Below, one piece after another: positions 9,601 through 37,680 of a stretch of 37,680 nucleotides of DNA. The notes under the pieces were generated by a model that had not been told where the DNA came from, did no database searches, and saw only the letters and a list, made by a program, of their open reading frames with translations. The stretch spans positions 1-37,680 of IMG/VR virus record IMGVR_UViG_3300046791_000574. One strand, written 5' to 3'. Every line of letters starts with the position of its first letter. Position 1 is the first letter of the stretch. The translations under genes and the position numbers were made by a program. Source of the DNA: a virus.

Positions 9601-11328
9601 CTACCTCCCCTCCAGGAACAGAACCGGCATGGCGACCACCTGGCCCCGGGACGGATAATCAATGAACCCCAGTGACCGCAGGCGCCCGATAGCGTTGGCG
9701 AACCCCTTGCTCGCCAGGTTGCCGTAGCCGGCGGCCGCGGCCAGGTTGGTGCGCTCGAGCGGGCCCGGGTACGCCTCGATCAGCGGCCGCATCAGGCGCT
9801 CGCTCGCCCCGCCCAGGAGTCGGAGCACTCGCTCCTGGATCTCGGCCGAAGACCGCGGCGCATCAACGGACTGCGCCAGGGCGCGCCCGGAGTCGGTAAG
9901 CGTCAGGCGCCCGGGGCCCGGATAGGCAATCTTCCCGGCGCTGCTCAGTGAGCCCATGGCGTTCGCGAACCCCTTGCTGGCGAGGTTCGTGTAGCCGGCG
10001 AGGAAGGCGACTTGGACACGCTCCGGTTCCGCTACGCCGAGGGCCTCGAGCTCTGCGAGGGCATCGAGCACGCGCTGGCCAGCACCGGAAAGGTGGCCGT
10101 TCCCCTCGATTCGGTCCCGGACCACCGGGCGCGCGGCTGCTGGCGCTGCGTTGGGAGCGAGTATCGGCTTCCACGGTGCCTTCTTTGCGAACGGACTGTT
10201 GGGCGGCGGCCAGCCCTGACCCTCGCGCGCCGAGTCGCGCAGCGCCACAGACAGCGCGAACGCCTCGGCGGCAACCGCTTTCCGCACGACATCCAATCGC
10301 TCGACCAGGGAATCCATATTCCCGATCCCGTGCTCGAGCCGCTTCACCTGCAGGTCCTTCAGGACCGGGACCTCGCGCACCTCCGCCTTCGCCGGCGCCG
10401 GCGTGCGCCTGTCCGCGGCTGCGAGCTGCGCCGCCAGGCTCTTCACCTCGGCGCGCAGGTCCGCCTCGGTCTTCGCCTTCCGCTCCTGCTCGGCCGGCAG
10501 GTCGGACAGCTTCGGCAGGAGCGCCCGGATCCGGTCGGTTGGCGGCGGCGCCGTGAACGCCAGGCGCGCCCCCGCCTTCGGGTGCGTCGTCTCGACCGGA
10601 CCGATGCGCACCTTCCGCACCTCGCGCGAGAGCGCCGGCCCGAAGACGAAGAACTCCCCCGCCTCGAGCTCGCGCAGTTCGCGCCAGCGCTCCTTCCCGA
10701 AGCCCAGCTCGTCGGCGGCGCGCTTCACGTCGACGTCGAGACCGGTGCGCCCGATCAGCTTGTTGTTCAGCTCAGCGGCCGCGTCCTTGTGCAGCTTGGA
10801 GAGCCTCTGGGTGGCGAGCACGGAGCCGAACCCGCGCTTCCGGCCCCGGGTGCAGAGGTCGATCACCGCGGTCGCCGACTCCGCCTCCCCCTGCTGCGGG
10901 CAGAAGACGTGCGCCTCGTCGAGCACCACCAGCGCCGGGTGCCACAGCTTCTTCGGCGCGTCGACGAGCGCCTCGAGGAAGCCGCGGACGAACCGGACCC
11001 GGTCGTGCGCCTTGAGCTCGTAGAGGTCGACGATGGCCGAGACCCCCAGCTCGAGGAGCCGCTGCGCCAGGAGGCCGGCGGCGCGCGGCTCGGCCGCCGT
11101 GTCGCCCCCGTGCTTCGCGGCCAGGACGTAATCGAACCGCTCCCGCAGGCTAGCGAACTCCCCTTCCGGGTCGAGCACCAGGTGCTGCACCGACCCGTGG
11201 CTCTGCTCGAGCAGCCGGCGGAGGCACCAGGACTTCCCCCCGCCGCTGTTCGCCTGCACTAGGCAGCGCGTGTCGATCAGCGTGGCGAGTCCGGTGTCGA
11301 CGCCGGGCGCGAGCTGGATCGTCCTCAC
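9601..11328 (-). CDS. HerA/FtsK-like ATPase with tandem C-terminal repeats
   Basis: 575 residues from the GTG at 11328 (GTGA overlap with the gene before it). Walker A is ANSGGGKS (26-33) and Walker B ALVVLDEAH (132-140), followed by a sensor region GSVLATQRLSKLHKD; this is the HerA-type DNA-translocase (DUF87) arrangement. Residues about 310-345 form a coiled coil. Two homologous segments near 440-480 and 525-560 each contain NLASKGFANA followed by YPG or YPS turns, likely duplicated winged-helix DNA-binding units. HerA hexamers pump or unwind DNA, usually with the nuclease NurA, which is absent here. Its partner may be ParB or RusA, but that is inference. Confidence 0.8.
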   Translation of the reverse strand: MRTIQLAPGVDTGLATLIDTRCLVQANSGGGKSWCLRRLLEQSHGSVQHLVLDPEGEFASLRERFDYVLAAKHGGDTAAEPRAAGLLAQRLLELGVSAIVDLYELKAHDRVRFVRGFLEALVDAPKKLWHPALVVLDEAHVFCPQQGEAESATAVIDLCTRGRKRGFGSVLATQRLSKLHKDAAAELNNKLIGRTGLDVDVKRAADELGFGKERWRELRELEAGEFFVFGPALSREVRKVRIGPVETTHPKAGARLAFTAPPPTDRIRALLPKLSDLPAEQERKAKTEADLRAEVKSLAAQLAAADRRTPAPAKAEVREVPVLKDLQVKRLEHGIGNMDSLVERLDVVRKAVAAEAFALSVALRDSAREGQGWPPPNSPFAKKAPWKPILAPNAAPAAARPVVRDRIEGNGHLSGAGQRVLDALAELEALGVAEPERVQVAFLAGYTNLASKGFANAMGSLSSAGKIAYPGPGRLTLTDSGRALAQSVDAPRSSAEIQERVLRLLGGASERLMRPLIEAYPGPLERTNLAAAAGYGNLASKGFANAIGRLRSLGFIDYPSRGQVVAMPVLFLEGR

Positions 11329-11909
11329 GCGACCGACCGCGTCTCTGGCTCGAGGAACCGCACAACCTTGACGAGCTCGCGCGCGTAGGCCAGTTCGCGC
11401 GCCGTGCTCTCCCCGATGTAGCCGCCGACGTTCAGGATCAGCACCTCGTCGGCGAGGTCGATCTTCTTCAGGTGCAGGGCGTCGAGCGCGATCTTCTGCT
11501 CTGGCGTGCAACCGATGTTCTCGCCGTGATGCTCGTAACGCACACGTTCGGATTCCGACTCAGGAGAGGGTCGATAGAAGCCCACCGAGAGGACTATCCT
11601 CCCGGCCATCGTCTCCTCATATTGCGCGCGCTGGAACGCTCCATAGAAGCGCGTCGAGCCGCACAGGCAAACGATGGTCGGGCGGGCTATCCGCGTCTGT
11701 ATCGCCAGCTCCATCATCACGCCGAGGCGGCGGTTCGCCTCCCAGTAGGCATCTCGGGAATCGAGGACGAGGTCGAACAGATCCCGTATGCGCCTGAACT
11801 GACCCGCCGGTAGCTGGATGAGGACCATGTCCGGCATGCTGTCGGCTAGCTCTGGGATCAGTCTCGCAACGCGCTTGCGGAGTTCTTCGGTGTCCTGGAG
11901 GCGGCTCAC
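11325..11909 (-). CDS. Nucleoside 2-deoxyribosyltransferase-like domain protein
   Basis: 194 residues from the GTG at 11909, which overlaps the ParB stop as GTGA. Residues 1-70 are a helical extension. From about 77, RPTIVCLCGSTRFYGAF, a Glu-Glu-Thr helix, the GRIVLSVGFY strand, ALDALHLKKIDLADEVLILN and GGYIGESTARELAYA match a deoxyribosyltransferase-like Rossmannoid family. The glycine-rich STR/GGYIG loops and the acidic residue after STA are the expected nucleotide-site elements. It is distinct from the shorter relative at 7699-8100. Substrate unknown; nucleotide salvage, base modification or signal-nucleotide cleavage are possible. Confidence 0.7.
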   Translation of the reverse strand: MSRLQDTEELRKRVARLIPELADSMPDMVLIQLPAGQFRRIRDLFDLVLDSRDAYWEANRRLGVMMELAIQTRIARPTIVCLCGSTRFYGAFQRAQYEETMAGRIVLSVGFYRPSPESESERVRYEHHGENIGCTPEQKIALDALHLKKIDLADEVLILNVGGYIGESTARELAYARELVKVVRFLEPETRSVA

Positions 11910-13585
11910 TTCCTGCTCCGTCCCTTCGCCTGACTCTTCAGCTTCGGTGGGAAGCAGGCGGTGCACCGGGTCTTCGTTCCGTCGGACCAGCCACAGCCGC
12001 TGGCGCAGGCCTTCTCCTCGGTGCAGCCGCACTTCCGGCAGGTGCCCTTCTTCGGCTTCCCCCCCGACTTTGCAGACGTCTGCACTGCGGGCTTCTCGAC
12101 CGGCGCCGCCTCGTTGAGTACGGCCCCGACGTCGATGCCGAAGGCCTTCATCTGCTTCCCGAACTGCTCACGCTCCCAGTTCCAGGGACTGCGGGAGTGC
12201 TGGATGGCGGCGTCGAAAGCCAGGTGGCGCACGAGCGCCTCGGCCGTCTTGCCGGGAGGCACCAGCTCGCGCGTCTCGCGATCGCTCCTCGCTGCGTCGG
12301 TGACGAACTTCATTGCCTGGCCGATCGGCGCCTTCAGGACCGCCGCAGCGAGCGCCTTCAGAAACGCCGGGCGCGCCGTCGTCCATCGCCTCCGCGCCAG
12401 CTCCTCCTTCTCGTTCGCCAGCTTCTGCTGCGCCTGTGCCCGGTTCTCGCGCTCGGCGATCTTGTCGCCGGTCCCGGATGTGACGCCGGCGCGCGCCCGG
12501 ATCCGCTCCTTCTGCCACGCCGCCCAGTGGGTCGCGCACTTCTCCTTGTTGACGCAGACCAGGAACGTCTCGCCCTGCCCCGGGCCGCACGCCACCAGGC
12601 CGAGGCGGCTCCGGTCGCAGGTCTTCGACTTCTCCTGTCCGTCGGCACGCTTCCAGGCCTCCAAGCCGAAGACCTTGTCCTTACCGGCGCCACGGACGTC
12701 GTCGCTCGCCCGATGCTGACGGGTGATGAGGATGACGCCGAGGCGATCGTCGGCGTGCTGCTCGATGGCCTGCGCCGTCTCCGGGAACAGGAACACGTCG
12801 ACGTGGGCGGGCTCGAACCGGACGTTGCGCTGGATCCACGCCTCGAGCTCCCGCACGCTGACCGCCTTCACGTGCGTGTATGGATCTTTCGAGGCGCGCT
12901 CGTCGTCATCAAACAGCGCCCCGCTCACGCTCTGGAAGACGCCCGAGTCGATCGCCGTCGAGTACCCGTTGCGAGTGGTGACATCGATCGCCCGCTTCTG
13001 GTCCTCCGGCTTCAGCCGCGCCAGCAGGATCGCGTGGCCGGCGCTGAACAGGGGCGGATCGCGAAGGAACAGCGCCTGCGCATCCGGCACCAGATCGAGC
13101 AGCTTCAGCCGGTCGTACACGTACTTCGGGCTTCGGCCGACCCGCGCCGCGATCTTCGCGACGTCGTATCCCGGCAGCCCCAGGAGTGCCTGGTAGCCCG
13201 AGGCCTCCTCGAACGCATGGACGTCCTCGCGCTGGTCGTTCTCCATGACCAGCAGCTCGAGGAACTCGTCGTCCGCCATCTCCCGGATCAGCACCGGGAC
13301 CGTCGGCCGACCGGCCGCGATCGCCGCGCGGAATCGCCGGTGTCCCGCCGCGATCTCGTAGAAGTCCCCGGCGCGCGCCGGCGCCGGGCGGACCAGGAGC
13401 GGGGTCACCACCCCCTTCGCCCGGACCGACTCCTCGAGCTCGCGCATGGACTCGGCCCGGAACCGCTTCCGTGGATTGTTCAGGGATTCCCGGAGCACCT
13501 TGACCGGCATCGCCGGCTCGAACTGCGCCGACCCCGACACGCTGAGATCCACACCCTCCACTGCCGCCGCCTCGTTCGTGTTCAT
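11906..13585 (-). CDS. ParB/Spo0J-family protein with Cys-rich C-terminus
   Basis: 559 residues from the ATG at 13585, with AGGAGGGG upstream. The ParB N-terminal CTPase/nuclease-like domain shows NPRKRF (37-42), GHRRFRAA (81-88) and ENDQRED (115-121), then an HTH at about 140-160 (YDVAKIAARVGRSPKYV). The rest is an extension with a CxxxxC-type cluster in the middle and a C-terminal zinc-binding module (CRKCGCTEEKAC, then CGW and CTAC). No ParA ATPase is encoded, so plasmid-style partition is doubtful given the integrase. Phage ParB-like proteins often sit in replication modules, as here, next to the initiator and HerA-like ATPase. Role: DNA-bound replication or regulatory factor, inferred. 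Confidence 0.85.
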   Translation of the reverse strand: MNTNEAAAVEGVDLSVSGSAQFEPAMPVKVLRESLNNPRKRFRAESMRELEESVRAKGVVTPLLVRPAPARAGDFYEIAAGHRRFRAAIAAGRPTVPVLIREMADDEFLELLVMENDQREDVHAFEEASGYQALLGLPGYDVAKIAARVGRSPKYVYDRLKLLDLVPDAQALFLRDPPLFSAGHAILLARLKPEDQKRAIDVTTRNGYSTAIDSGVFQSVSGALFDDDERASKDPYTHVKAVSVRELEAWIQRNVRFEPAHVDVFLFPETAQAIEQHADDRLGVILITRQHRASDDVRGAGKDKVFGLEAWKRADGQEKSKTCDRSRLGLVACGPGQGETFLVCVNKEKCATHWAAWQKERIRARAGVTSGTGDKIAERENRAQAQQKLANEKEELARRRWTTARPAFLKALAAAVLKAPIGQAMKFVTDAARSDRETRELVPPGKTAEALVRHLAFDAAIQHSRSPWNWEREQFGKQMKAFGIDVGAVLNEAAPVEKPAVQTSAKSGGKPKKGTCRKCGCTEEKACASGCGWSDGTKTRCTACFPPKLKSQAKGRSRK

Positions 13586-14121
13586 GCCGTCCCCTCCTGG
13601 GTTCGATCGACCGCGTCGACGCGCCGAGCCTCGACGGGGTTGGCCTTGGTCCACTGCCGGTACTCTTCCTCGCCGCTCCGGTACTTCAGCTTCTCCGCCC
13701 AGAAGGCCGCGCACCGACGCAGCCCCCGCGGGCACTCCATGCAGAACCAGGCCACCGTCTCCCGCCTGCCGGTCAGCGGCGAGACGCAACCCGGGTTGTC
13801 CTTCGTCCCCTTGAACTCGCCGAACGTCAGACCGAGGTCGCGGCAGTGCCGGCAGGAGATCCGCGCGCGCGGCGGTGCGATCTGGTCGGAGAGCTCGGCA
13901 GGGTCGATGAATCGCAGCGCCAGGGCGGCGAACCGTTGCACCATCGGCGGCAGGTCCTTCCACTCCGGATTCCCGAAGGCCTCGCTCTCTGGGTAGCGCA
14001 CCAGGCGGTTGTGCAGCGTCTCGGCCTGGCGGAAGGCCTCCTCGCTGACCCCGCGGCGCTCGTAGGCCCCCGCCACCGGCAGAAGCGTCTGGACCTCGGC
14101 GCGTTCGATCTCCCCCCTCAC
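13582..14121 (-). CDS. Unrecognised protein with Cys clusters
   Basis: 179 residues from the GTG at 14121, overlapping the replication-initiator stop as GTGA; its own stop overlaps the parB start as ATGA. Residues 1-85 are helical (YERRGVSEEAFRQAETLHNRL, then MVQRFAALALRFIDP). A Cys-rich segment follows: CRHC near 91-94, a single Cys, then CMEC and a further Cys before AFWAEKLKYR, consistent with a zinc-binding fold. Position between initiator and ParB suggests a replication accessory role, for instance helicase loading, but no family was recognised. Confidence 0.6.
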   Translation of the reverse strand: MRGEIERAEVQTLLPVAGAYERRGVSEEAFRQAETLHNRLVRYPESEAFGNPEWKDLPPMVQRFAALALRFIDPAELSDQIAPPRARISCRHCRDLGLTFGEFKGTKDNPGCVSPLTGRRETVAWFCMECPRGLRRCAAFWAEKLKYRSGEEEYRQWTKANPVEARRVDAVDRTQEGTA

Positions 14122-15128
14122 GAGCTGACCCCGAGCTCGCGGTTGATGTCCCGCATGCGTTGGCGCGCGCGGTCGGCGTCGGTCTCCGGCCGCTTCTCGG
14201 TGTTGACCAGCCGGGCGAAGTTCGCCGGCTCGAAGATCACCTGCGGTGACAGGAACTCCCAGCCCCGGGGATCGGTGCCGTCCAGGGCCCGGGCGTGCTG
14301 CTGGTCGACCATGCGCTTGCAGACCTCGGCGTCGAAGTCCTGGTGGGCGCGGTGGAGGCGCTCGGCGATCCGGCCGGCGAGCGGGAAGGCTCGGCCGGTC
14401 CGCTCGGCGAAGTGCGACAGGACGTCGAGGCAGGTAGGGCATCCTCCATCCGGGCGGCGCGCCTGAGGCGGCTCGTGATGGATCGGGATGACGACCGAGC
14501 CCCCCGTGTCCGGTGGATCCGGTCCATGTGTGGGTGCGCCGTTACCGACTACGTCTCCGCACACGCCTTCGACTACGTCTTCGCATACGACTACGGCCGC
14601 CGGATGCGCGCGCGCCGCGCGCGGGCCGCGGTCATTGGGCGGGCATGGCGCGGACATTCGGCGGTCATTGGGCGGGCATTCGGCGGGCAGCTGATTCGAA
14701 AGGACTTGCCGGATCGTAGTCTCGGGATTCCCCGATCGCTTGCCTGCATCGCGTCGGGCGACGCTGTCTTCGAGCTCGCCGATGGCGTCCAGCACCTCGA
14801 CGGGTGGGGCGGGGTATTTACTCCCGCTCCGGGCCCGCTGGCCGAAGTTGAAGAGCTGCAGGAGCCGGTCATCCCCGGCCTGGTAGAACGCCAGGAGGCG
14901 GACCTGCGCCAGCTCCTCGAGCCATGCGGCGACATGCTTCTCCGTGACCTGGTCGACCGACCGCGGCCGAGGGAAGCAGGCCGCGAGGACCAGGTAAGGC
15001 TCGGCGCTGAACCGGCCGTAGTCGTCGGCGACGGACTTGAGAGCGTGCCAGAGCACGATCCCCCCTAGGCTCGTCGAGGCGCAGCGGCGTGACCGGATCC
15101 ACCCCTCGCGCGTGATGCGGTTCGGCAT
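14118..15128 (-). CDS. Phage replication initiator / replisome organiser
   Basis: 336 residues. The N-terminus MPNRITREGWIRS and the following ALKSVADDYGRFSAEP and VAAWLEELAQVRLLAFY match the winged-helix domain of phage replisome organisers (DnaD/lambda-O-like). The C-terminus HARALDGTDPRGWEFLSPQVIFEPANFARLVN matches the conserved 'Phg_2220_C' type tail of these proteins, which contacts the helicase machinery. Residues 147-194 form a low-complexity linker with the repeat CPPNDR (151-156 and 162-167), encoded by DNA iterons at 14546-14687. Lambda O is built the same way, with ori inside its gene. No helicase or primase gene is evident, so host replication proteins are presumably recruited. 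Confidence 0.75.
   Translation of the reverse strand: MPNRITREGWIRSRRCASTSLGGIVLWHALKSVADDYGRFSAEPYLVLAACFPRPRSVDQVTEKHVAAWLEELAQVRLLAFYQAGDDRLLQLFNFGQRARSGSKYPAPPVEVLDAIGELEDSVARRDAGKRSGNPETTIRQVLSNQLPAECPPNDRRMSAPCPPNDRGPRAARAHPAAVVVCEDVVEGVCGDVVGNGAPTHGPDPPDTGGSVVIPIHHEPPQARRPDGGCPTCLDVLSHFAERTGRAFPLAGRIAERLHRAHQDFDAEVCKRMVDQQHARALDGTDPRGWEFLSPQVIFEPANFARLVNTEKRPETDADRARQRMRDINRELGVSS
14546..14687. repeat. ori: Iteron cluster, probable replication origin inside the initiator gene
   Basis: Two repeat sets. At 14633-14687 five tandem 11-bp units begin at 14633, 14644, 14655, 14666 and 14677, consensus CATTSGGCGGG; the second is degenerate, and 14633 and 14666 share an 18-base identity. An 11-bp period keeps all sites on one helix face. 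At 14546-14595 CGACTACG recurs at 14546, 14570 and 14588, the first two as CGACTACGTCTYCGCA. The cluster lies in the linker-coding part of the initiator gene, exactly where lambda carries its O-binding iterons. Function is inferred from architecture; no strongly AT-rich unwinding element is obvious nearby. Confidence 0.65.
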
Positions 15129-15370
15129 CAGCCCCTTCCCCCCTTCCCACGGGTTGGTGCCGCGGAGCTGCCTGGCTCCACCGGCGGTGACTTGCAGACC
15201 GACCGGTGCGCCACGCGCACGGTCAGCGATCGCGTGATGCGGTAGTCGCCCCTCGAGGCCTCGAAGATGACCAGGTCGTAGGTGGGCGAGTCGGGATCGA
15301 GCAGGATCCGCTGGCCGGTCTCGGTGCGGCCGACGTCGACCGGCCTGCTGCAGCCCGGGCAGGTGGTCAT
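15128..15370 (-). CDS. Small protein with N-terminal CxxC
   Basis: 80 residues. The N-terminus MTTCPGCSRPVDV is a one-knuckle metal-binding start, followed by GRTETGQRILLDPD and a short beta-rich stretch (YDLVIFEASRGDYRITRSLTVRVAH) and a disordered Gly/Pro tail. It resembles small phage zinc proteins that lie beside replication genes. Its stop TGA overlaps the initiator ATG as TGATG, and a GGGG SD overlaps the upstream stop. Function unknown. Confidence 0.6.
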   Translation of the reverse strand: MTTCPGCSRPVDVGRTETGQRILLDPDSPTYDLVIFEASRGDYRITRSLTVRVAHRSVCKSPPVEPGSSAAPTRGKGGRG

Positions 15371-15373
15371 CCC

Positions 15374-15700
15374 CTACACCCCCGCCCAGGTCTCGGCCAG
15401 CCGGGCCGTCGCGCGCAGCCGGTAGAGGACTGCCGCACGGAGCGCCGCGGGCACGCCGGCGTCGCGCATCGCCCAGACGTAGCGATCCGCCTCGAGCTGG
15501 CAGAACCAGCAGATCAGGTCGACCGCCCCGCCCAGAACCTTCCGGAAGCGCGTGCGCAGCTGCCACCCGGCCAGGCGCCCGACGCCCGCGACGCGGCGCA
15601 TCCGCTCGGCCGCGATCAGGACCTGCTCGTGCTTGCGGCCGCAGCACCGGCACCGTGGCAGCGTCACGACGACGTCGACCGTCGGATTGGCGCAGGTCAT
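15374..15700 (-). CDS. Unrecognised protein with paired Cys motifs
   Basis: 108 residues from the ATG at 15700 (AGGAGG upstream at good spacing). A CRCC pair near residue 17-20 followed by GRKHEQ, and a CWFC pair near 65-68, suggest a single zinc site binding two knuckles, with Arg-rich helices between and after (RLAGWQLRTRFRKVL; LRAAVLYRLRATARLAE). High positive charge fits nucleic acid binding. No family recognised. Confidence 0.55.
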   Translation of the reverse strand: MTCANPTVDVVVTLPRCRCCGRKHEQVLIAAERMRRVAGVGRLAGWQLRTRFRKVLGGAVDLICWFCQLEADRYVWAMRDAGVPAALRAAVLYRLRATARLAETWAGV

Positions 15701-16349: not shown

Positions 16350-16798
16350 CGCTCTCCCCTCTTGCTCGCCGCGCGGCCCTGGTCGGTCTTCCTGAGTGCG
16401 GCGCGGTTCAGCCACTCGCGCCGGTCTTGGATTTCCTTCACGAGGCCGCGGAACCGTTCCGGGTGCTCGGCGATCAGGGCGGCGACGGCCAGCATTTCGT
16501 CCCGCAGGACGCCTCCCTGGACACGGCCGTATTTACCGATCTCCCAGGAGATTTCCCGATCGAGGGCCCTGAGCGGGCTTTGCTCCCACGTCGGCCACCG
16601 CCACGACGCGTTGGAGCACGTCATGCAGGTGAGGAGGGCGCAGCGCTGCTGGCCGAGCTCTTTCAGTCGGGTCAGGAACTCTTCGCGGCTGATGGACTTG
16701 ACCTTGCTCGCGTCGTAGCCGCACTCGGTGGTCGCCGGGTCGCTCGGGTCCCGCCACGGCAGACGCGGGCGGACGACGTGATCGACTGGCTCATTCAT
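16346..16798 (-). CDS. Unrecognised early protein with CxxC
   Basis: 150 residues from the ATG at 16798. Has one Cys near the N-terminus (TTECGYD), then CALLTCMTC around residue 52-60 followed by an aromatic run (ASWRWPTW), and helical charged segments to a basic tail. Such clustered Cys suggest a metal site. It is coupled by ATGA overlaps to the DUF5131 gene before it and the wHTH gene after it. No family recognised. Confidence 0.5.
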   Translation of the reverse strand: MNEPVDHVVRPRLPWRDPSDPATTECGYDASKVKSISREEFLTRLKELGQQRCALLTCMTCSNASWRWPTWEQSPLRALDREISWEIGKYGRVQGGVLRDEMLAVAALIAEHPERFRGLVKEIQDRREWLNRAALRKTDQGRAASKRGER

Positions 16799-17895
16799 GC
16801 CGGCACCTGGCGCACGCGCAGGTCCTGCGGCCACTCGGCCGGGTCGCCGCCCTTGCGATCGAAGAGGCTGAATCCGACCGCCGGCACAGAGCAGACTCTC
16901 GTCGGCGGGCGCTGCCTGGCGGGCTCGCCTATCAGGGGCGGTACGTAGCCGCGGCCGTCCTCGAGGAGCCAGTGGTTGACGGGGAACCCGGCGTCATCCC
17001 CGAGGATCCAGCGCCCGGCCTGCTTCACGAAGCAGGGCACCGCCGCAGCCCGGCACTGCCCGACGATGGAGCGAATCCAGCCGACGTCGCACGGGCGCGC
17101 GCCGGGTCCTGACTCGCCACCGGCGATCACCCAGTCGAGGGCGACCTTCTCCCCGTCGTAGACCCGCTCGCCGCCGATTCCGGAGAGGAAAGACGACGAG
17201 CACGGATCGCTCTCGTGGGTTGAATCGAAGATGATCGGCCCGAGTAGCGGCTCCGCACTGATGAACCGGTTCGCCGCCGGCGTCTGCAACAGGAGCGGGA
17301 TGCGCTCGTCGGCCGTCGCCTGGTCCTCGACGCTCACCCCGAGCCAGACGTTCGGCAACGGCCAGTCGGCCATGCTGAGCGCCGAGTCCCCGGGCATGCG
17401 TTCCCCGATGAACCAGGGCAGCTCCTCGGAGAGAAGCTTGCGCATCCGCTCGGGTCGCTTCGTCAGGATCAGGAAGGTGTGCTGGTCACCGGTCCAGCAC
17501 TCCTCGTCGTGCTCCCGGTGTCCTGGCCGGCAGCCTAGGGTCGCCGAGGCCATGACGTCGAAGATCTGCGCCAGCGCCTCGACCGGGAGCGCCTCGTGGA
17601 ACAGGTCCGACATGGAGTTCACGAAGATGCGGAGCGGCTTCCGGCGCCGCAGCGGCCAGTCGAGCGCCTCCGGAACCAGCGCCACCTTGCCGGTCCAGCG
17701 TGGGCCGTTCGGCGTGTTCTCGGCGAAGCCGTGGAATGGCGCGGGCCGGTTGAGTGCACCGAGCAAACGCATCCTGCTGAACCGGACTGCGTGCCGCTCC
17801 GCGTAGCAGTTCCGGCACCCCTCCGAGACCCGCGAGCAGCCGCGCACCGGGTTCCAGGTCGCGTCGCACCACTCGATCGCGGAGAGGCCGCTCAA
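16795..17895 (-). CDS. Phage Gp37/Gp68 family protein (DUF5131)
   Basis: 366 residues from the TTG at 17895, which overlaps the previous stop as TTGA and follows a GGGGG SD. The N-terminus IEWCDATWNPVRGC then SEGCRNCYAERHA is the hallmark of the Gp37/Gp68 family, with C20, C27 and C30 spaced like a three-Cys cluster, followed by RIFVNSMSDLFHE, ILTKRPERM, NVWLGVSVEDQATADERIP, FISAEPLLGP and WVIAGGESGPGARP. The Cys pattern and barrel-like repeats resemble radical-SAM-type enzymes, but cofactor and reaction are not established for the family as far as I know. Length is normal. Family assignment is firm, function open. Confidence 0.88.
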   Translation of the reverse strand: MSGLSAIEWCDATWNPVRGCSRVSEGCRNCYAERHAVRFSRMRLLGALNRPAPFHGFAENTPNGPRWTGKVALVPEALDWPLRRRKPLRIFVNSMSDLFHEALPVEALAQIFDVMASATLGCRPGHREHDEECWTGDQHTFLILTKRPERMRKLLSEELPWFIGERMPGDSALSMADWPLPNVWLGVSVEDQATADERIPLLLQTPAANRFISAEPLLGPIIFDSTHESDPCSSSFLSGIGGERVYDGEKVALDWVIAGGESGPGARPCDVGWIRSIVGQCRAAAVPCFVKQAGRWILGDDAGFPVNHWLLEDGRGYVPPLIGEPARQRPPTRVCSVPAVGFSLFDRKGGDPAEWPQDLRVRQVPA

Positions 17896-18395
17896 GCTGG
17901 CCCCCGTTCGATGAATAGGGACGGCCCTTGGCACAGGGTCGAGAGCGCGGTCGCTGCCTCCACGGCTTCGATCGGGGAGTGCCCGAGGTAGAGCGCCGCG
18001 AGCGCGAAGTCCTGGCCGGCTCCGATGGCGTCGTAGGCGGCGATCTCGTCTGCGAAGAGGCCCTCGCAATGGAACAGGCGACCGCGCCAGCCGAGGAGGG
18101 AGTGGTTCTCCACCTTGCCGCTCTCGGTGCTGGTCTTCTTCCAGGCACCGAACTCGCCGAGGTATTCCGTGATTGACCTCACGTCGGCGCCGTGCGGCTG
18201 GTGGTTCATCGAGAACAGCCGCATGAGCCCGCCCTCTTCGCAGGTTCCAACCGTGCCGATGACGAGCGGCCCCTCATCCCACAGCTTCGTGAACTTCCCG
18301 AGGCCGACGACCTGTGTTGGCCAGCGCACCTGAATGGAGTCAGCAGCGATGCCGAAGCCGCCGCCCGAATAGACCTTGCCGGCGACGACGCTCAC
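17892..18395 (-). CDS. Ntn-hydrolase, HslV/proteasome-like
   Basis: 167 residues from the GTG at 18395. Family members cut peptide bonds with an N-terminal nucleophile exposed after Met removal; here Ser2 directly follows the initiator, in place of the Thr of HslV. Further matches are the Asp in GIAADSI (HslV Asp17 equivalent), a Lys in KFTKLW (Lys33 equivalent), the strand LVIGTVGT, and the C-terminal AIGAGQDFALAALYLGHSPIEAVEAA helix pair typical of proteasome-like folds. No partner unfoldase is encoded. It could process phage or host proteins; substrate unknown. First gene after the attachment region in the early operon. Confidence 0.75.
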   Translation of the reverse strand: MSVVAGKVYSGGGFGIAADSIQVRWPTQVVGLGKFTKLWDEGPLVIGTVGTCEEGGLMRLFSMNHQPHGADVRSITEYLGEFGAWKKTSTESGKVENHSLLGWRGRLFHCEGLFADEIAAYDAIGAGQDFALAALYLGHSPIEAVEAATALSTLCQGPSLFIERGPA

Positions 18396-20172: not shown

Positions 20173-21015
20173 TCATCGGGCCGGCCAGGGCCTCGGCGGC
20201 CCGATGAACCGCACCGATGCCAGGATGTGCTCCGGCGACAGGTGCGAGTAGCGCTCCGTCGTCTTGATCGACCGGTGCCCCATCAGCTTCTGCAGCACCC
20301 GCAGGCTGCCCCCATTCATCACATACCAGCTCCCGAAGGTGTGCCGCAGGGTATGGAAGGTGACGTCTGAACCCAGCCCGGCTCGCGCCCTGGCGCTCTC
20401 GAAGGAGGACCGGATGTCGTGCATCGCCGCCCCCCTCCACAGGAAGACCGGATCCTCGAGGCCGCCGGCGGGGAGCGCGCGGAGGCAGGAGTGCAGCATC
20501 TCGCTGAGCGGCAGGTGTCGCCGGCGCATCTTCCCCTTCGTGTTCTTCCGCGCGAAGGTGACGATGCGCGCCAGGAGGTCGACGTGCTGCCACTGGAGCC
20601 CCAGCACCTCGCTGAGGCGACCGCCGGTGTGCAGCGCTGTCGTGATCACCGGCCGCGCGTGCGGCGGCGCCGCCAGCGTCAGGCGCCCCGCCTCGTCGGG
20701 CGTCAGATAGCGGTCGCGCCCGTCGCCCTCCCGGAAACGCTTCACCTGCAGAGCGGGGTTCGGCCCCGAGCGATAGCCCCGGGTGGTGCACCACTCGAGG
20801 AACACGCTCAGCGCCGAGGCCTGGCGGTTGAGGGTCGGGCGCGCGATGCCCTCAGCGAGGCGCGACCTGAAGAAGCGCTCGACATCGATGACAGTGATCT
20901 GGTCGAGGGGGAGGTCGCCGAAGTGCCGCTCGAGGATGCGCATCTGGGACGGCATGGTGCGCAGGTCCTCGGAGTAGAGCTGGTGGTGAAGCAGAAACTC
21001 GGCGACGACCCCCAT
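20173..21015 (-). CDS. int: Tyrosine recombinase (integrase)
   Basis: 280 residues from the ATG at 21015. An N-terminal SAM-like core-binding domain (1 to about 95) precedes the catalytic domain with all active-site residues visible: R133 (TGGRLSEVLGL), Lys candidate 157 or 160 in KNTKGK, H221 and R224 (HTLRHTFGSW), H247 (LMGHRSIKTTE) and nucleophile Y256 (RYSHLS). A TTG at 21099 would extend it by 28 residues, but that TTG is part of a good -35 box, so I prefer the inner start although its SD (GGGCGAG) is weak. It integrates the phage at the tRNA-derived site. No excisionase was recognised. Confidence 0.93.
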   Translation of the reverse strand: MGVVAEFLLHHQLYSEDLRTMPSQMRILERHFGDLPLDQITVIDVERFFRSRLAEGIARPTLNRQASALSVFLEWCTTRGYRSGPNPALQVKRFREGDGRDRYLTPDEAGRLTLAAPPHARPVITTALHTGGRLSEVLGLQWQHVDLLARIVTFARKNTKGKMRRRHLPLSEMLHSCLRALPAGGLEDPVFLWRGAAMHDIRSSFESARARAGLGSDVTFHTLRHTFGSWYVMNGGSLRVLQKLMGHRSIKTTERYSHLSPEHILASVRFIGPPRPWPAR

Positions 21016-21070
21016 GAAATGCTCGCCCGGCAAGGGTTTCCCCGGAATGGGCGGCTTCGCGGTTTTTGGG

Positions 21071-21099
21071 TATATACGGCTGAAAGCCGCGCCCCGCAA
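21071..21099 (-). promoter_or_regulatory. Integrase promoter with a dyad in the spacer
   Basis: Reading leftwards: -35 TTGCGG (21094-21099), 17-base spacer, -10 TATATA (21071-21076). The spacer contains CGGCT-GAA-AGCCG on the plus strand (21077-21089), a 5-bp dyad that fills most of the space between the hexamers. A repressor bound there would block RNA polymerase. It lies just after the terminator that ends the lysis operon, so integrase appears to be a separate transcription unit. Confidence 0.6.
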
Positions 21100-29983: not shown

Positions 29984-30343
29984 TCAGATCGTCCGCCACG
30001 TCGTCCCGTCCCATGAGGAGTGCGCCCCACTGTCGGTGGCGATGTAGAGGCACGGCGTCGCCGGCGTCGCCGGGCGGTCCGCCGCGGCGCCGGCGAGGAT
30101 CTGCTCGACCCGGACGACGGCGCGCGCTTCCTGGTCATCCCACGAGCTGGTGAGCCCCGACCCCTCGAACTTCAACGGCCCGACCCCCAGCTCGTCGGCG
30201 CGATCGCGCTCGATGACCCGGACGGTGGCGCGCGCCGCCTCGGCGCTGGCGCGGTTCCGGATCGCCGCCGTCGCCTGGTCGACCGGGCCGGGCGTCGCCG
30301 GCCCGCCCCCGCCCCCCGTCTCTCCTGGATTCTGGAGAGGCAT
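29984..30343 (-). CDS. Small tail-tip protein with fibre-type C-terminus
   Basis: 119 residues from the ATG at 30343 (GGAGG about 7 bases upstream). Gly-rich start, a helix (AAIRNRASAEAARATVRVIERDRADELG), and an end CLYIATDSGAHSSWDGTTWRTI that is the common tip motif of phage fibres and collars. This is the first gene after the plus-strand PDZ gene interrupts the tail operon, so its transcription depends on read-through under that gene. Confidence 0.55.
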   Translation of the reverse strand: MPLQNPGETGGGGGPATPGPVDQATAAIRNRASAEAARATVRVIERDRADELGVGPLKFEGSGLTSSWDDQEARAVVRVEQILAGAAADRPATPATPCLYIATDSGAHSSWDGTTWRTI

Positions 30344-30366
30344 CAGGCGGCCTCCGCCAGAAGGCC

Positions 30367-30395
30367 TTGCATGGCGGTCGGTTCCGGCGTATACG
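30367..30395 (+). promoter_or_regulatory. Promoter of the plus-strand PDZ gene
   Basis: -35 TTGCAT (30367-30372), 17-base spacer, -10 TATACG (30390-30395) on the plus strand, about 35 bases before the SD of the PDZ gene. It is the only good plus-strand promoter pattern noticed, and its position just before the only plus-strand gene makes it convincing. It would be active in a lysogen without late activators. Confidence 0.65.
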
Positions 30396-30435
30396 AGGAC
30401 CACGAAACCCGCCTTTGCATTCGGAGAACACCACG

Positions 30436-31149
30436 ATGAGATCGATAGCTATCCTTCTTGCCCTGAGCGCTGTCTCGTTCGTCGACAGCGCCGCGCTTGC
30501 CGATGAGCCGGCGGCTCGCCACGACCGTCCATGGTTCGGAACCTTCTGCGCGCCGGCGGTCGACTGGAACATGAACCCCATGCTGCTGGTGAAAGAGGTC
30601 ATATCGGGGTCCCCGGCCGAGGACGCAGGGATCGCCGAGGGCGATTTCATACGGGCGCTGAACGGGACTCCCATCGCGGATACGGCAGCCCTCGGCGCTG
30701 CCCTCGACAAGAGCAGCTCCGGCGACGTTCTTGTGGTGACCATCGCTCGCGGAAGTGAGGTCCTGGCCGTCCCCGTTACCCTTCGAGTGCCTACCGAATC
30801 CCAGCGCGCAGAGATGGCGGCCCGCCGCGAGGCGCTTGCGACTACGACCGCCGACCAGGATGCGCCGCACATGGTCTTCATCCCGCAGCGCCTGTGCCTG
30901 GTCGGGGTGACCTATGGCGAGGCCCTGGCGATGAGTCTTGTTCCCGGCTCCGTCTCGATGGACGTCAATGAGATCGGAGCCTGCAGACACCCTGTCGACC
31001 CATGCGCGCCCGTCGTACTCACGAAACAGTCCAAATCGAAGACCGTTGTCGAGCGCATGGGCGTCCGCTACAAGCTGAAGGGTGACTGGCAAGCCATTAC
31101 GCACGATGACCGAGAGCAGTGCCTCGAGGCCATCTCGCGCCAGCCCTGA
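30436..31149 (+). CDS. Periplasmic PDZ-domain protein, lysogenic 'moron'
   Basis: 237 residues from the ATG at 30436 (GGAG about 9 bases upstream). A Sec signal peptide (about 1-23, SIAILLALSAVSFVDSAALA) is followed by a PDZ domain at about 50-115: LLVKEVISGSPAEDAGIAEGDFIRALNGTPI and SGDVLVVTIARGSEVLAVPVTL. The C-terminal half has three Cys and no recognisable protease domain, so it binds peptides or C-termini rather than cutting. It is the only gene on the plus strand, has its own promoter, and is visibly less GC-rich than its neighbours. It sits between tape measure and tail-tip genes, a typical insertion spot for cargo genes. Envelope stress or host-surface modulation is an inference. Confidence 0.85.
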   Translation: MRSIAILLALSAVSFVDSAALADEPAARHDRPWFGTFCAPAVDWNMNPMLLVKEVISGSPAEDAGIAEGDFIRALNGTPIADTAALGAALDKSSSGDVLVVTIARGSEVLAVPVTLRVPTESQRAEMAARREALATTTADQDAPHMVFIPQRLCLVGVTYGEALAMSLVPGSVSMDVNEIGACRHPVDPCAPVVLTKQSKSKTVVERMGVRYKLKGDWQAITHDDREQCLEAISRQP

Positions 31150-31163
31150 ACCAGGCGAACGCA

Positions 31164-33074
31164 TCACGCGAGCACCGTCGTCGCCGGTAGGTAGTAGCCG
31201 CGGCGCTCCACCAGGACCCTGATCTCCTCCAGCATCTCGATCGCTTCCGCGGTCTTGTCTCGACGAGGCAGGATGGTGATCGGCATCGAGACTTCCGGTC
31301 CGATCGGGAGCGCCATGCCGGCGCTCGCGAAGCTGGCGGCGCTTCCGATGCCGGCCCCCAGACCTGGACTCACGAACTGGGCGGGCTGGCCGATAGAGTC
31401 GAGCACGCCACCAAGGCCGCTGAAGCCACCCGAGGAGAGCACGGAGCCGGCCTGGCTTCCGGCCGCCGCGCCAGCTGGCCCGCCGAAGGCGGCGCCCAGC
31501 GCCGTGAAAATCGCCTTGATTATCGTCGCGCGGAGGATTGCTTTCAGCAGATCGGCCAGGAGCCCCCGGAAGAACTGACCCCAGGCAATCTTGGCGCCGA
31601 GGGCCGCATCGATCATCGCTCCGCCGAAGCTCTCGGCAGCGCCGGTCAGGCCATCCTGGAGCGCCATCTGCGTATCGGTCATGACCTGCAGCGTTCCCTG
31701 GACGGCATGCTGCGCGGCGCTCAGATCGTCCTGCCACTCCGGGAGTTGTCTCGTGATCTCGGTGATCGCGCCGAGTGCTTGGTCCCATTGCTCCGGCGAG
31801 ATCAAACCCTGGCGATTCAGGTCCTGGAGCAGGAGCAGCGCGTTGTCGACGCCGAACAGCTGATCCTCGAGCTCCTTGAATGTTGGGATGCCGAGGGTCT
31901 TGAGCTGTTCGGTCAACCGCTCGATTTCGGATTTCGCCTTGGCCGCACCGATGCCGATGTTGCCGATGGCGTCCGGCACGATGGTCTTCCCCGTGCCCTT
32001 GCCCAGGCCCTCGATGATCTGGCGGATCTTCTCGGCGACCGTGTCGGCGCTGTCGCCGGCCTCGCCGAACGCGCCCTTGAGCTCGCCGAGGCGGGTCTGC
32101 CACTGGCCCGCCCATTTCGCCAGAGCGATCGAGTCCTGGTCCGTCCACCCGAAGGCCTCTTTGACGAGCGCCGGCGCGTCGTCGGCGAGCGCGGCCAGGG
32201 CGACCAGGACCTGCCCCAGCGAGAGCCCCATCGAGATCAGCCGGAACTCGAAGGCCGTAACCTCCGCCGCGATCATGATCAGCCCCAGGGCCGCTCGCGA
32301 CAGCACTGTCACGAGCGTCTGGAACGCCTCGCTGTGCTCCCCGACAAATCCGGTGGCTTCCTTCAGGATGGCCGAGAGCCCCTCGAGGACACCGCGGAAG
32401 GCCTCGTTCTCGACGACCGCCCGGCCGGTCTCCTGCATCAGGTCGTCGTAGTCGTTCGCGATCCGCTGCAAGGCCCCGGAGAAGGTCTTCCCGGTGATGG
32501 CCGCGGCGCCGCCCATCTTGTCGTTAATCTGGCTGATGACCTGGGCGAAGCGGTCCCCCTTCGAGGCGGACGCGTCGAAGTCGGTGGCGATCCCCTGCAG
32601 GCGGCCGCTTCCCTTGACCAGGACGTTGACCATCTGGGTCGCGGCGGATTCGACGTCCTGGCCGGTGGCGGCGGCATAGTCGAGGGCCGCCTTCGTCGCC
32701 TGCTCGAGCGCATCCCCGCTGAGCTGGCCGAGCTGCGCGAAGGTGGAGACCACCCCGGAGATCGTCTCGTCGCCGACCGTGGTGACGTCCTGCAGGGTGG
32801 AGATGAACTTCCCGAGGTGCATGCGGACGGCGTCGGTGTTCTGACCGATCGAGGCGAGCGCCGTGGCCAGACGGACGTCCGCCTTCTCCTGCTCGGCCGC
32901 GGCCATCGTGGCCTTCGTGATCGCATAGCCGATGGCGGCGAGCGCCGCCCCGGCGGCGGCAGCCATGACCGGGAGCGAGGTGAGGTTCTTCCCGAGGCTG
33001 GCGAGCGCCTTGTCGGCCTCGTTCTTGGCCTTGATGATGATGCTGACGTTTCGTTCAGTGCCGCCCACGGCCAC
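31164..33074 (-). CDS. Tail tape measure protein
   Basis: 636 residues from the GTG at 33074 (AAAGGAAG upstream). It sets tail length and is ejected with the DNA. Features: N-terminal ERNVSIIIKAKNEADKALASLG, long amphipathic helices, a phage-minor-tail-like central part (LPVMAAAAGAALAAIGYAITKATMAAAEQEKADVRLATALA), several hydrophobic segments (about 265-310 and 510-560) as in membrane-spanning tape measures, and a Gly/Ala-rich end. It follows the two chaperone ORFs and overlaps the second by 20 bases. Its length suggests a tail of roughly 0.1 micrometre by the usual 1.5 angstrom-per-residue rule. Ends 14 bases from the convergent PDZ gene. Confidence 0.88.
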   Translation of the reverse strand: MAVGGTERNVSIIIKAKNEADKALASLGKNLTSLPVMAAAAGAALAAIGYAITKATMAAAEQEKADVRLATALASIGQNTDAVRMHLGKFISTLQDVTTVGDETISGVVSTFAQLGQLSGDALEQATKAALDYAAATGQDVESAATQMVNVLVKGSGRLQGIATDFDASASKGDRFAQVISQINDKMGGAAAITGKTFSGALQRIANDYDDLMQETGRAVVENEAFRGVLEGLSAILKEATGFVGEHSEAFQTLVTVLSRAALGLIMIAAEVTAFEFRLISMGLSLGQVLVALAALADDAPALVKEAFGWTDQDSIALAKWAGQWQTRLGELKGAFGEAGDSADTVAEKIRQIIEGLGKGTGKTIVPDAIGNIGIGAAKAKSEIERLTEQLKTLGIPTFKELEDQLFGVDNALLLLQDLNRQGLISPEQWDQALGAITEITRQLPEWQDDLSAAQHAVQGTLQVMTDTQMALQDGLTGAAESFGGAMIDAALGAKIAWGQFFRGLLADLLKAILRATIIKAIFTALGAAFGGPAGAAAGSQAGSVLSSGGFSGLGGVLDSIGQPAQFVSPGLGAGIGSAASFASAGMALPIGPEVSMPITILPRRDKTAEAIEMLEEIRVLVERRGYYLPATTVLA

Positions 33075-37553: not shown

Positions 37554-37680
37554 GCCCGGGTCTTACGCGAGGTTGTGCGAGAGGAGACGGAGCGACCGGC
37601 CGGCTCCGCCGATCATGTCGCTGTCCCAGCGCTCGAACATCACGAACCCGGTCTGGAAGTACTCGGCGTAGCGCTCGTTC
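37554..37680. repeat. Terminal direct repeat, right copy; start of the capsid gene 3' end
   Basis: Identical to bases 1-127. It contains the capsid stop codon (37563-37565) and the last 39 codons of the capsid gene, which continue from base 1 of the window. When the contig is closed these copies merge into one, and the capsid gene follows the 117-residue small protein gene. Confidence 0.95.

Follow-up and report, generated by a model that had tools for sequence, protein, structure and literature searches.

A prophage cargo slot beside the tape measure gene whose late strand may be kept translatable through antisense genes

The closest described relatives of the locus treated here are noncontiguous operons, in which an antisense gene with its own promoter is flanked by co-directional operon genes. 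In phage phi80, taiEcA/atiEcA lie in the Q late operon, where the antisense immune gene is active during lysogeny and reduced by late expression (PMC11364771); tha/ith of 80alpha provide a precedent in S. aureus (PMC11087260). Such operons pose the question of how the outer operon is transcribed and translated through 0.5–1.3 kb of antisense sequence. A different use of two strands is known from ambigrammatic narnaviruses, whose reverse frame is stop-free and codon-aligned, with CUA, UUA, and UCA being avoided (PMC7010960, PMC6884476, PMC8316113). Here, we describe a prophage cargo slot for which it is fairly probable, taking the explanation as a whole, that it forms a noncontiguous operon whose late strand is kept translatable through the cargo.

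The window—the whole stretch of DNA analyzed, 37,680 nucleotides of IMG/VR record IMGVR_UViG_3300046791_000574—bears a 127-bp exact direct terminal repeat (1–127 and 37554–37680) and hence appears to represent a complete genome, about 37.55 kb in size. A tyrosine integrase (20173–21099, minus strand; Pfam PF00589, E = 3.4e-25), together with integrases encoded by two relatives, marks this phage and its clade as temperate. Beside the integrase, the phage encodes a HerA/Zot-like ATPase, a 685-aa ParB-like protein, and a replication-initiation-like protein (9601–15653, minus strand), which are possibly plasmid-like maintenance genes, and a DUF5131 protein (16795–18069, minus strand; Pfam E = 4.5e-75, phrog_2045) lies outside the structural gene block. 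The slot itself is framed by two late genes on the minus strand: upstream, the tape measure protein gene (31164–33074; Pfam TMP_2, E = 4.7e-4; PHROG tail length tape measure) and, as the next tail gene after the slot, a gene assigned by alignment and referred to as nx (29984–30343; 119 aa, C-terminal end LYIATDSGAHSSWDGTTWRTI). A scan of GTDB with the tape measure and tail alignments gave no match.

Between these two genes, the plus strand carries the open reading frame at 30367–31149 that the first-pass annotation had claimed. Its stop at 31149 stands, and its start is better placed at ATG 30436 than at the first-listed TTG 30367, because the proposed −35 box begins with this TTG and a Shine–Dalgarno-like GGAG (30423–30426, plus strand) lies nine bases before the ATG. 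The cargo gene thus spans 30436–31149 and encodes 237 aa, as judged from the open reading frame list, Pfam, coding support, a PDB sequence search, and hydropathy. The hydrophobic N terminus (mean 2.07 over 15 residues) includes a predicted signal peptide, MRSIAILLALSAVSFVDSAALA (30436–30501, plus strand), whose AxA-type cleavage site was assigned by inspection. It is followed by an HtrA/DegQ-type PDZ domain at about aa 33–116 (30532–30783, plus strand) with Pfam matches to PF13180 (E = 1.9e-10), PF17820 (2e-10), and PF00595 (2.6e-7); its closest solved chains are DegQ/DegP PDZ1 (E~2e-8 over 73–85 residues). In the Pfam search, PDZ alone was matched and no trypsin-like protease domain was found, so that the earlier description of an exported PDZ protein devoid of a protease holds, with export being predicted. 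Its description as the only plus-strand gene needs a qualification: it is the sole one combining good coding support with a family match, while a few short plus-strand frames are listed as well.

The remainder of the protein bears a C-terminal domain at about aa 142–232 (30859–31131, plus strand), which is common to the PDZ protein of a relative, L023 (BLASTP 2e-10), and whose last part matches a small exported protein of another, L003 (pairwise 2e-8); the latter two proteins also match each other (BLASTP 9e-7). This domain has no Pfam match in either PDZ protein. AlphaFold models calculated from two-sequence alignments reached mean pLDDT values of 43.5 and 47.8, too poor for a fold search. 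Searches with the PDZ protein yielded no full-length relative in IMG/VR, in INPHARED (one weak PDZ-only match), or among plasmids (PDZ-only matches). Homologues of the slot were reached only via the tape measure, capsid, and nx proteins as anchors.

A moron, in the classical definition, is inserted between two genes that lie side by side in a related phage and carries its own promoter, its own terminator, and a deviating base composition. At sequence level, the window gene has a promoter-like site of its own: the first-pass annotation had proposed TTGCAT-17-TATACG, which is found exactly at 30367–30395 (plus strand) and ranks in the top 2.2% by score among equal-length stretches of the same genome; a stricter consensus promoter scan did not list it. 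It lacks its own terminator, no terminator-like site being present at 30000–31600. The lower GC content claimed for the gene amounts to a slight difference (64.6% vs 68.5% for the genome). At the place corresponding to the window site, L002 and L004 retain TTGCGC-17-TATACG with scores not above background, whereas L003 (TTGACG-17-TACCGT, rank 0.7%) and L032 (TTGTCT-16-TATAAT, rank 0.3%) bear sites of different sequence. For L020 and L023, the promoters picked by eye are outscored by other sites there and were not counted.

The slot was compared between the window and the six relatives whose contigs cross this spot (L002, L003, L004, L020, L023, and L032; n = 7), found by a search with the tape measure, capsid, and next-tail proteins; L025 is identical to L023 over the slot. 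In all seven phages, the stretch from the tape measure gene to nx is occupied by one or two genes on the opposite strand, and the layout of a noncontiguous operon seen in the window—an antisense gene, preceded by a promoter-like site, amid operon genes that share one direction—recurs in the six relatives. The cargo itself varies. L002 (6688–7320) and L004 (9917–10540) encode proteins with a weak HIRAN match, under the Pfam cut-off, and a C-terminal membrane segment, and L003 combines a HIRAN-like gene (10374–10862; all three on the minus strand of their contigs, two with the membrane anchor) with the small exported protein mentioned above. The cargo proteins of L020 and L032 belong to one further exported family (39% identity), and L023 bears an exported PDZ protein with the window-type C-terminal domain plus a small membrane-anchored protein. 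By hydropathy, eight of the nine cargo proteins look exported or membrane-anchored, through an N-terminal signal/membrane segment or a C-terminal one.

No empty slot was found among the seven phages. In L006 and L011, which bear distant tape measure homologues, the tape measure gene runs straight into the next late gene, which is unrelated. The tape measure protein of L023 is only 37% identical to that of the window, and the presence of a PDZ protein in the slot despite this distance suggests an old arrangement rather than a recent insertion. The earlier reading of a moron inside the tail operon hence survives in part: the gene is on the opposite strand, has a promoter-like site, and resides in a temperate phage, but it is not isolated, as the slot is filled in all seven. 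Judged from the genomes compared, the slot is a long-lived one with exchangeable cargo and not a one-off moron. As a side observation, nx seems frameshifted near its 5′ end in L023 (14843–15200), with the same sequence in L025, which is either real or a shared assembly error.

The late strand opposite the cargo shows an unexpected organization, one that the first-pass annotation had missed. In the window, a stop-free late-strand frame of 274 codons (30343–31167, minus strand), hereafter the bridge, is codon-aligned with the PDZ gene; its GTG/ATG overlap the tape measure stop (GTGATG), and its TGA overlaps the ATG of nx (TGATG). From the tape measure stop to the nx start, the codon-aligned late frame has 0 stops in 7/7 slots—the reverse-frame openness that is one hallmark of ambigrammatic genes—whereas the other two frames have 2–17 stops each. 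A start overlapping the tape measure stop (ATGA or GTGA) lies in the bridge frame in six of the seven slots, and the bridge stop overlaps the nx start (TGATG or TAGTG) in every slot but that of L032, whose bridge continues to 12 bases beyond the first base of the nx start codon. The distances from cargo to nx are 93, 75, 81, 78, 63, 87, and 42 bases, those from the tape measure stop to the cargo stop 15, 6, 6, 12, 9, −58, and 6, and those between paired cargo genes 66 and 12. Thereby, 15 of 16 junction distances are divisible by three (binomial P = 8e-7 if independent), or 13 of 14 if only distinct distances are counted (P = 6e-6); these nominal values, like those for codon usage below, are optimistic because the seven slots share ancestry and nine cargo genes are a small set.

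The register exception is the tape measure side of L023 (−58). There, a GTGA-initiated frame of 24 codons terminates at a TGATG, and the ATG of this overlap leads into the open frame; a crossing in this phage would have to be relayed through the short frame. Separately, an opposite-strand HNH endonuclease gene (PF01844, E = 1.8e-6) lies directly after nx in L035 (6195–6746, minus strand); here too, a late-strand frame starting at a GTG that overlaps the nx stop (TAGTG) is in register and runs stop-free through the gene, a phase that may follow from the CTAG overlap of two stops.

An open antisense frame alone says little: among the window's own genes, chance alone leaves the aligned antisense frame open in about 50–67% of stretches of such length. 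Openness by itself was hence dropped as a signal, since this control showed open aligned antisense frames to be common in these GC-rich genomes, and the case rests on the joint pattern of phase and codon avoidance. The complements of TTA, CTA, and TCA are stops. In the cargo, TCA and CTA together account for 0 of 199 codons and TTA for 0 of 17, at an A-ending share of 12.5% in six four-fold families, whereas genes with a similar A-ending share, taken from the same phages as controls, show 35/713 and 3/26, respectively. For TCA and CTA, the difference between cargo and controls corresponds to a Fisher P of 1.5e-4 (1.6e-3 if each family is represented by a single gene). The avoidance of these codons beyond composition—the second hallmark of ambigrammatic genes—is thus present in the cargo.

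These data also bear on a simpler reading, in which the window gene is an ordinary opposite-strand moron, the openness of the late strand results incidentally from high GC, and the agreement in phase reflects chance and shared ancestry. The frequency of open aligned antisense frames in these genomes and the homology of the slots speak for it, as does the sparing use of TCA and CTA in the late genes as well (7/459). Yet the junction distances vary from slot to slot (93, 75, 81, 78, 63, 87, and 42 on one side; 15, 6, 12, and 9 on the other) while remaining multiples of three, and the cargo is richer in A-ending codons but still bears no TCA, CTA, or TTA. We therefore rate this reading as rather unlikely.

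Alternatively, both strands might be truly coding, with the bridge frame encoding either a late protein that has a function or an extension of the tape measure protein reached by frameshifting, overprinted on the cargo. This would explain why most slots have a frame devoid of stops whose start and stop are coupled. However, substitutions in the cargo favor sense position 3, and conservation is lower for the late than for the sense reading in three comparisons (0.70 vs 0.78, 0.25 vs 0.39, and 0.30 vs 0.48). Moreover, with cargo families that have no relation to one another, the late-strand readings cannot all encode a single conserved protein. This makes dual coding improbable. The PDZ and HIRAN-like matches, in combination with the sense-position-3 substitutions, identify the cargo strand as coding, and the late-strand open reading frame was therefore rejected as the true gene in place of the cargo; the bridge product itself is probably without function.

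Returning to the noncontiguous operon with a translatable late strand, the following course of events can be sketched. In the lysogen, the cargo would be made from its own promoter with the late operon being off; after induction, the late polymerase would cross the slot antisense and turn the cargo down, as reported for phi80 taiEcA, an experimental precedent for such silencing. We regard expression of the cargo in the lysogen, followed by late silencing, as probable. The late message, on the other side, is probably translated across the antisense cargo, because the frame is stop-free and in register, the junctions are multiples of three, and TTA, CTA, and TCA are absent. Ribosomes ending the tape measure gene would restart at the overlapping codon and trail the polymerase via the bridge to nx. 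The late message would otherwise stay untranslated for 0.5–1.3 kb; ribosome passage along the bridge might avoid this, so that Rho-type polarity would be prevented and the tail genes would stay translationally coupled. Several genes at the nx position carry their own Shine–Dalgarno-like sequence, and the coupling may therefore be unneeded. Whether the clade selects exchangeable antisense cargo for being ambigrammatic—such that ribosomes cross in register from the tape measure stop to the next start—is, in our estimate, an evenly balanced proposition. If true, it would represent a general solution for placing an opposite-strand gene inside an operon while escaping polarity.

What the PDZ protein would do, probably in the periplasm, is a separate, last step. 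Tape-measure-directed exclusion is known from SNIPE (PMC13190303), and prophage-encoded HK97 gp15 and TP-J34 Ltp are described as blocking DNA entry and as linked to the tape measure protein (cited in PMC10883804). Such exclusion proteins resemble the slot cargo in their membrane or surface location; no sequence relation was found in a PADLOC search, which gave no match. An action of the PDZ protein on phage entry, i.e., superinfection exclusion, is somewhat favored by the tape measure neighbor, the predicted envelope destination, a geometry like that of sieA, and these exclusion precedents, and it is put forward here tentatively. The protein might instead modulate host envelope proteolysis as a binding partner or decoy for DegP/DegS-type substrates, which would change only this last step of the explanation given above. 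Its PDZ domain is most like DegQ/DegP PDZ1 and comes without the protease domain these proteins have. Nevertheless, the PDZ proteins of the window and L023 bear the extra C-terminal domain lacking a Pfam match, which sets the window protein further apart from DegQ/DegP, and the cargo of L002, L004, L020, and L032 has no PDZ domain, so that the theme shared by the slot cargo is the envelope and not proteolysis. A role in proteolysis, one of two suggested in the first-pass annotation, is neither supported nor refuted by the analysis and is rated as rather unlikely, somewhat below exclusion. A virion or tail-assembly component would fit the location in the tail operon; the opposite strand, the promoter-like site, and the export signal argue against it, and it was rejected as unrelated proteins replace the PDZ protein in phages with closely related tail genes, leaving this option scarcely credible. 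In any case, the slot beside the tape measure gene is a place to seek new envelope-acting, possibly anti-phage, proteins.

Compared with known systems, the slot resembles phi80 tai and 80alpha tha/ith in bearing one or more genes with their own promoter that are read against the surrounding operon. Unlike these, it lies between the tape measure and the next tail gene, its cargo is envelope-directed and exchangeable, no counter-defense partner was identified here, and a frame free of stops and in register is kept on the operon strand. In phi80, the late-operon gene gp52 on the opposite strand, whose position leads us to equate it with the tai gene, has 15 stops in the aligned late frame compared with 0 in the window slot. 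Similarly, P22 sieA has its own promoter and lies on the opposite strand directly after a DNA-ejection protein gene (16) and upstream of the tailspike, but it encodes a membrane protein unrelated to the window cargo and has six stops in its aligned late frame. P22 late transcription is antiterminated by gp23, and phi80 late transcription is antiterminated as well, which would remove the need for an open aligned frame there. The lack of such a frame in P22 and phi80 hence fits an explanation by polarity without proving it, their GC content also being much lower. Ambigrammatic narnaviruses differ in having RNA genomes and in using the polymerase gene, whereas here DNA phage cargo of 140–263 codons is concerned, whose reverse frame is joined to both flanking genes. 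In a literature search that covered few subscription papers, no report was found of a phage late operon whose antisense cargo is kept open and in register with the genes on both sides. The noncontiguous operon and the codon-aligned open reverse frame are each already known, and it is their combination that, within the scope of this search, appears to be new: a natural system in which an operon strand seems to be kept translatable by narnavirus-type codon avoidance, and which is testable with synonymous edits.
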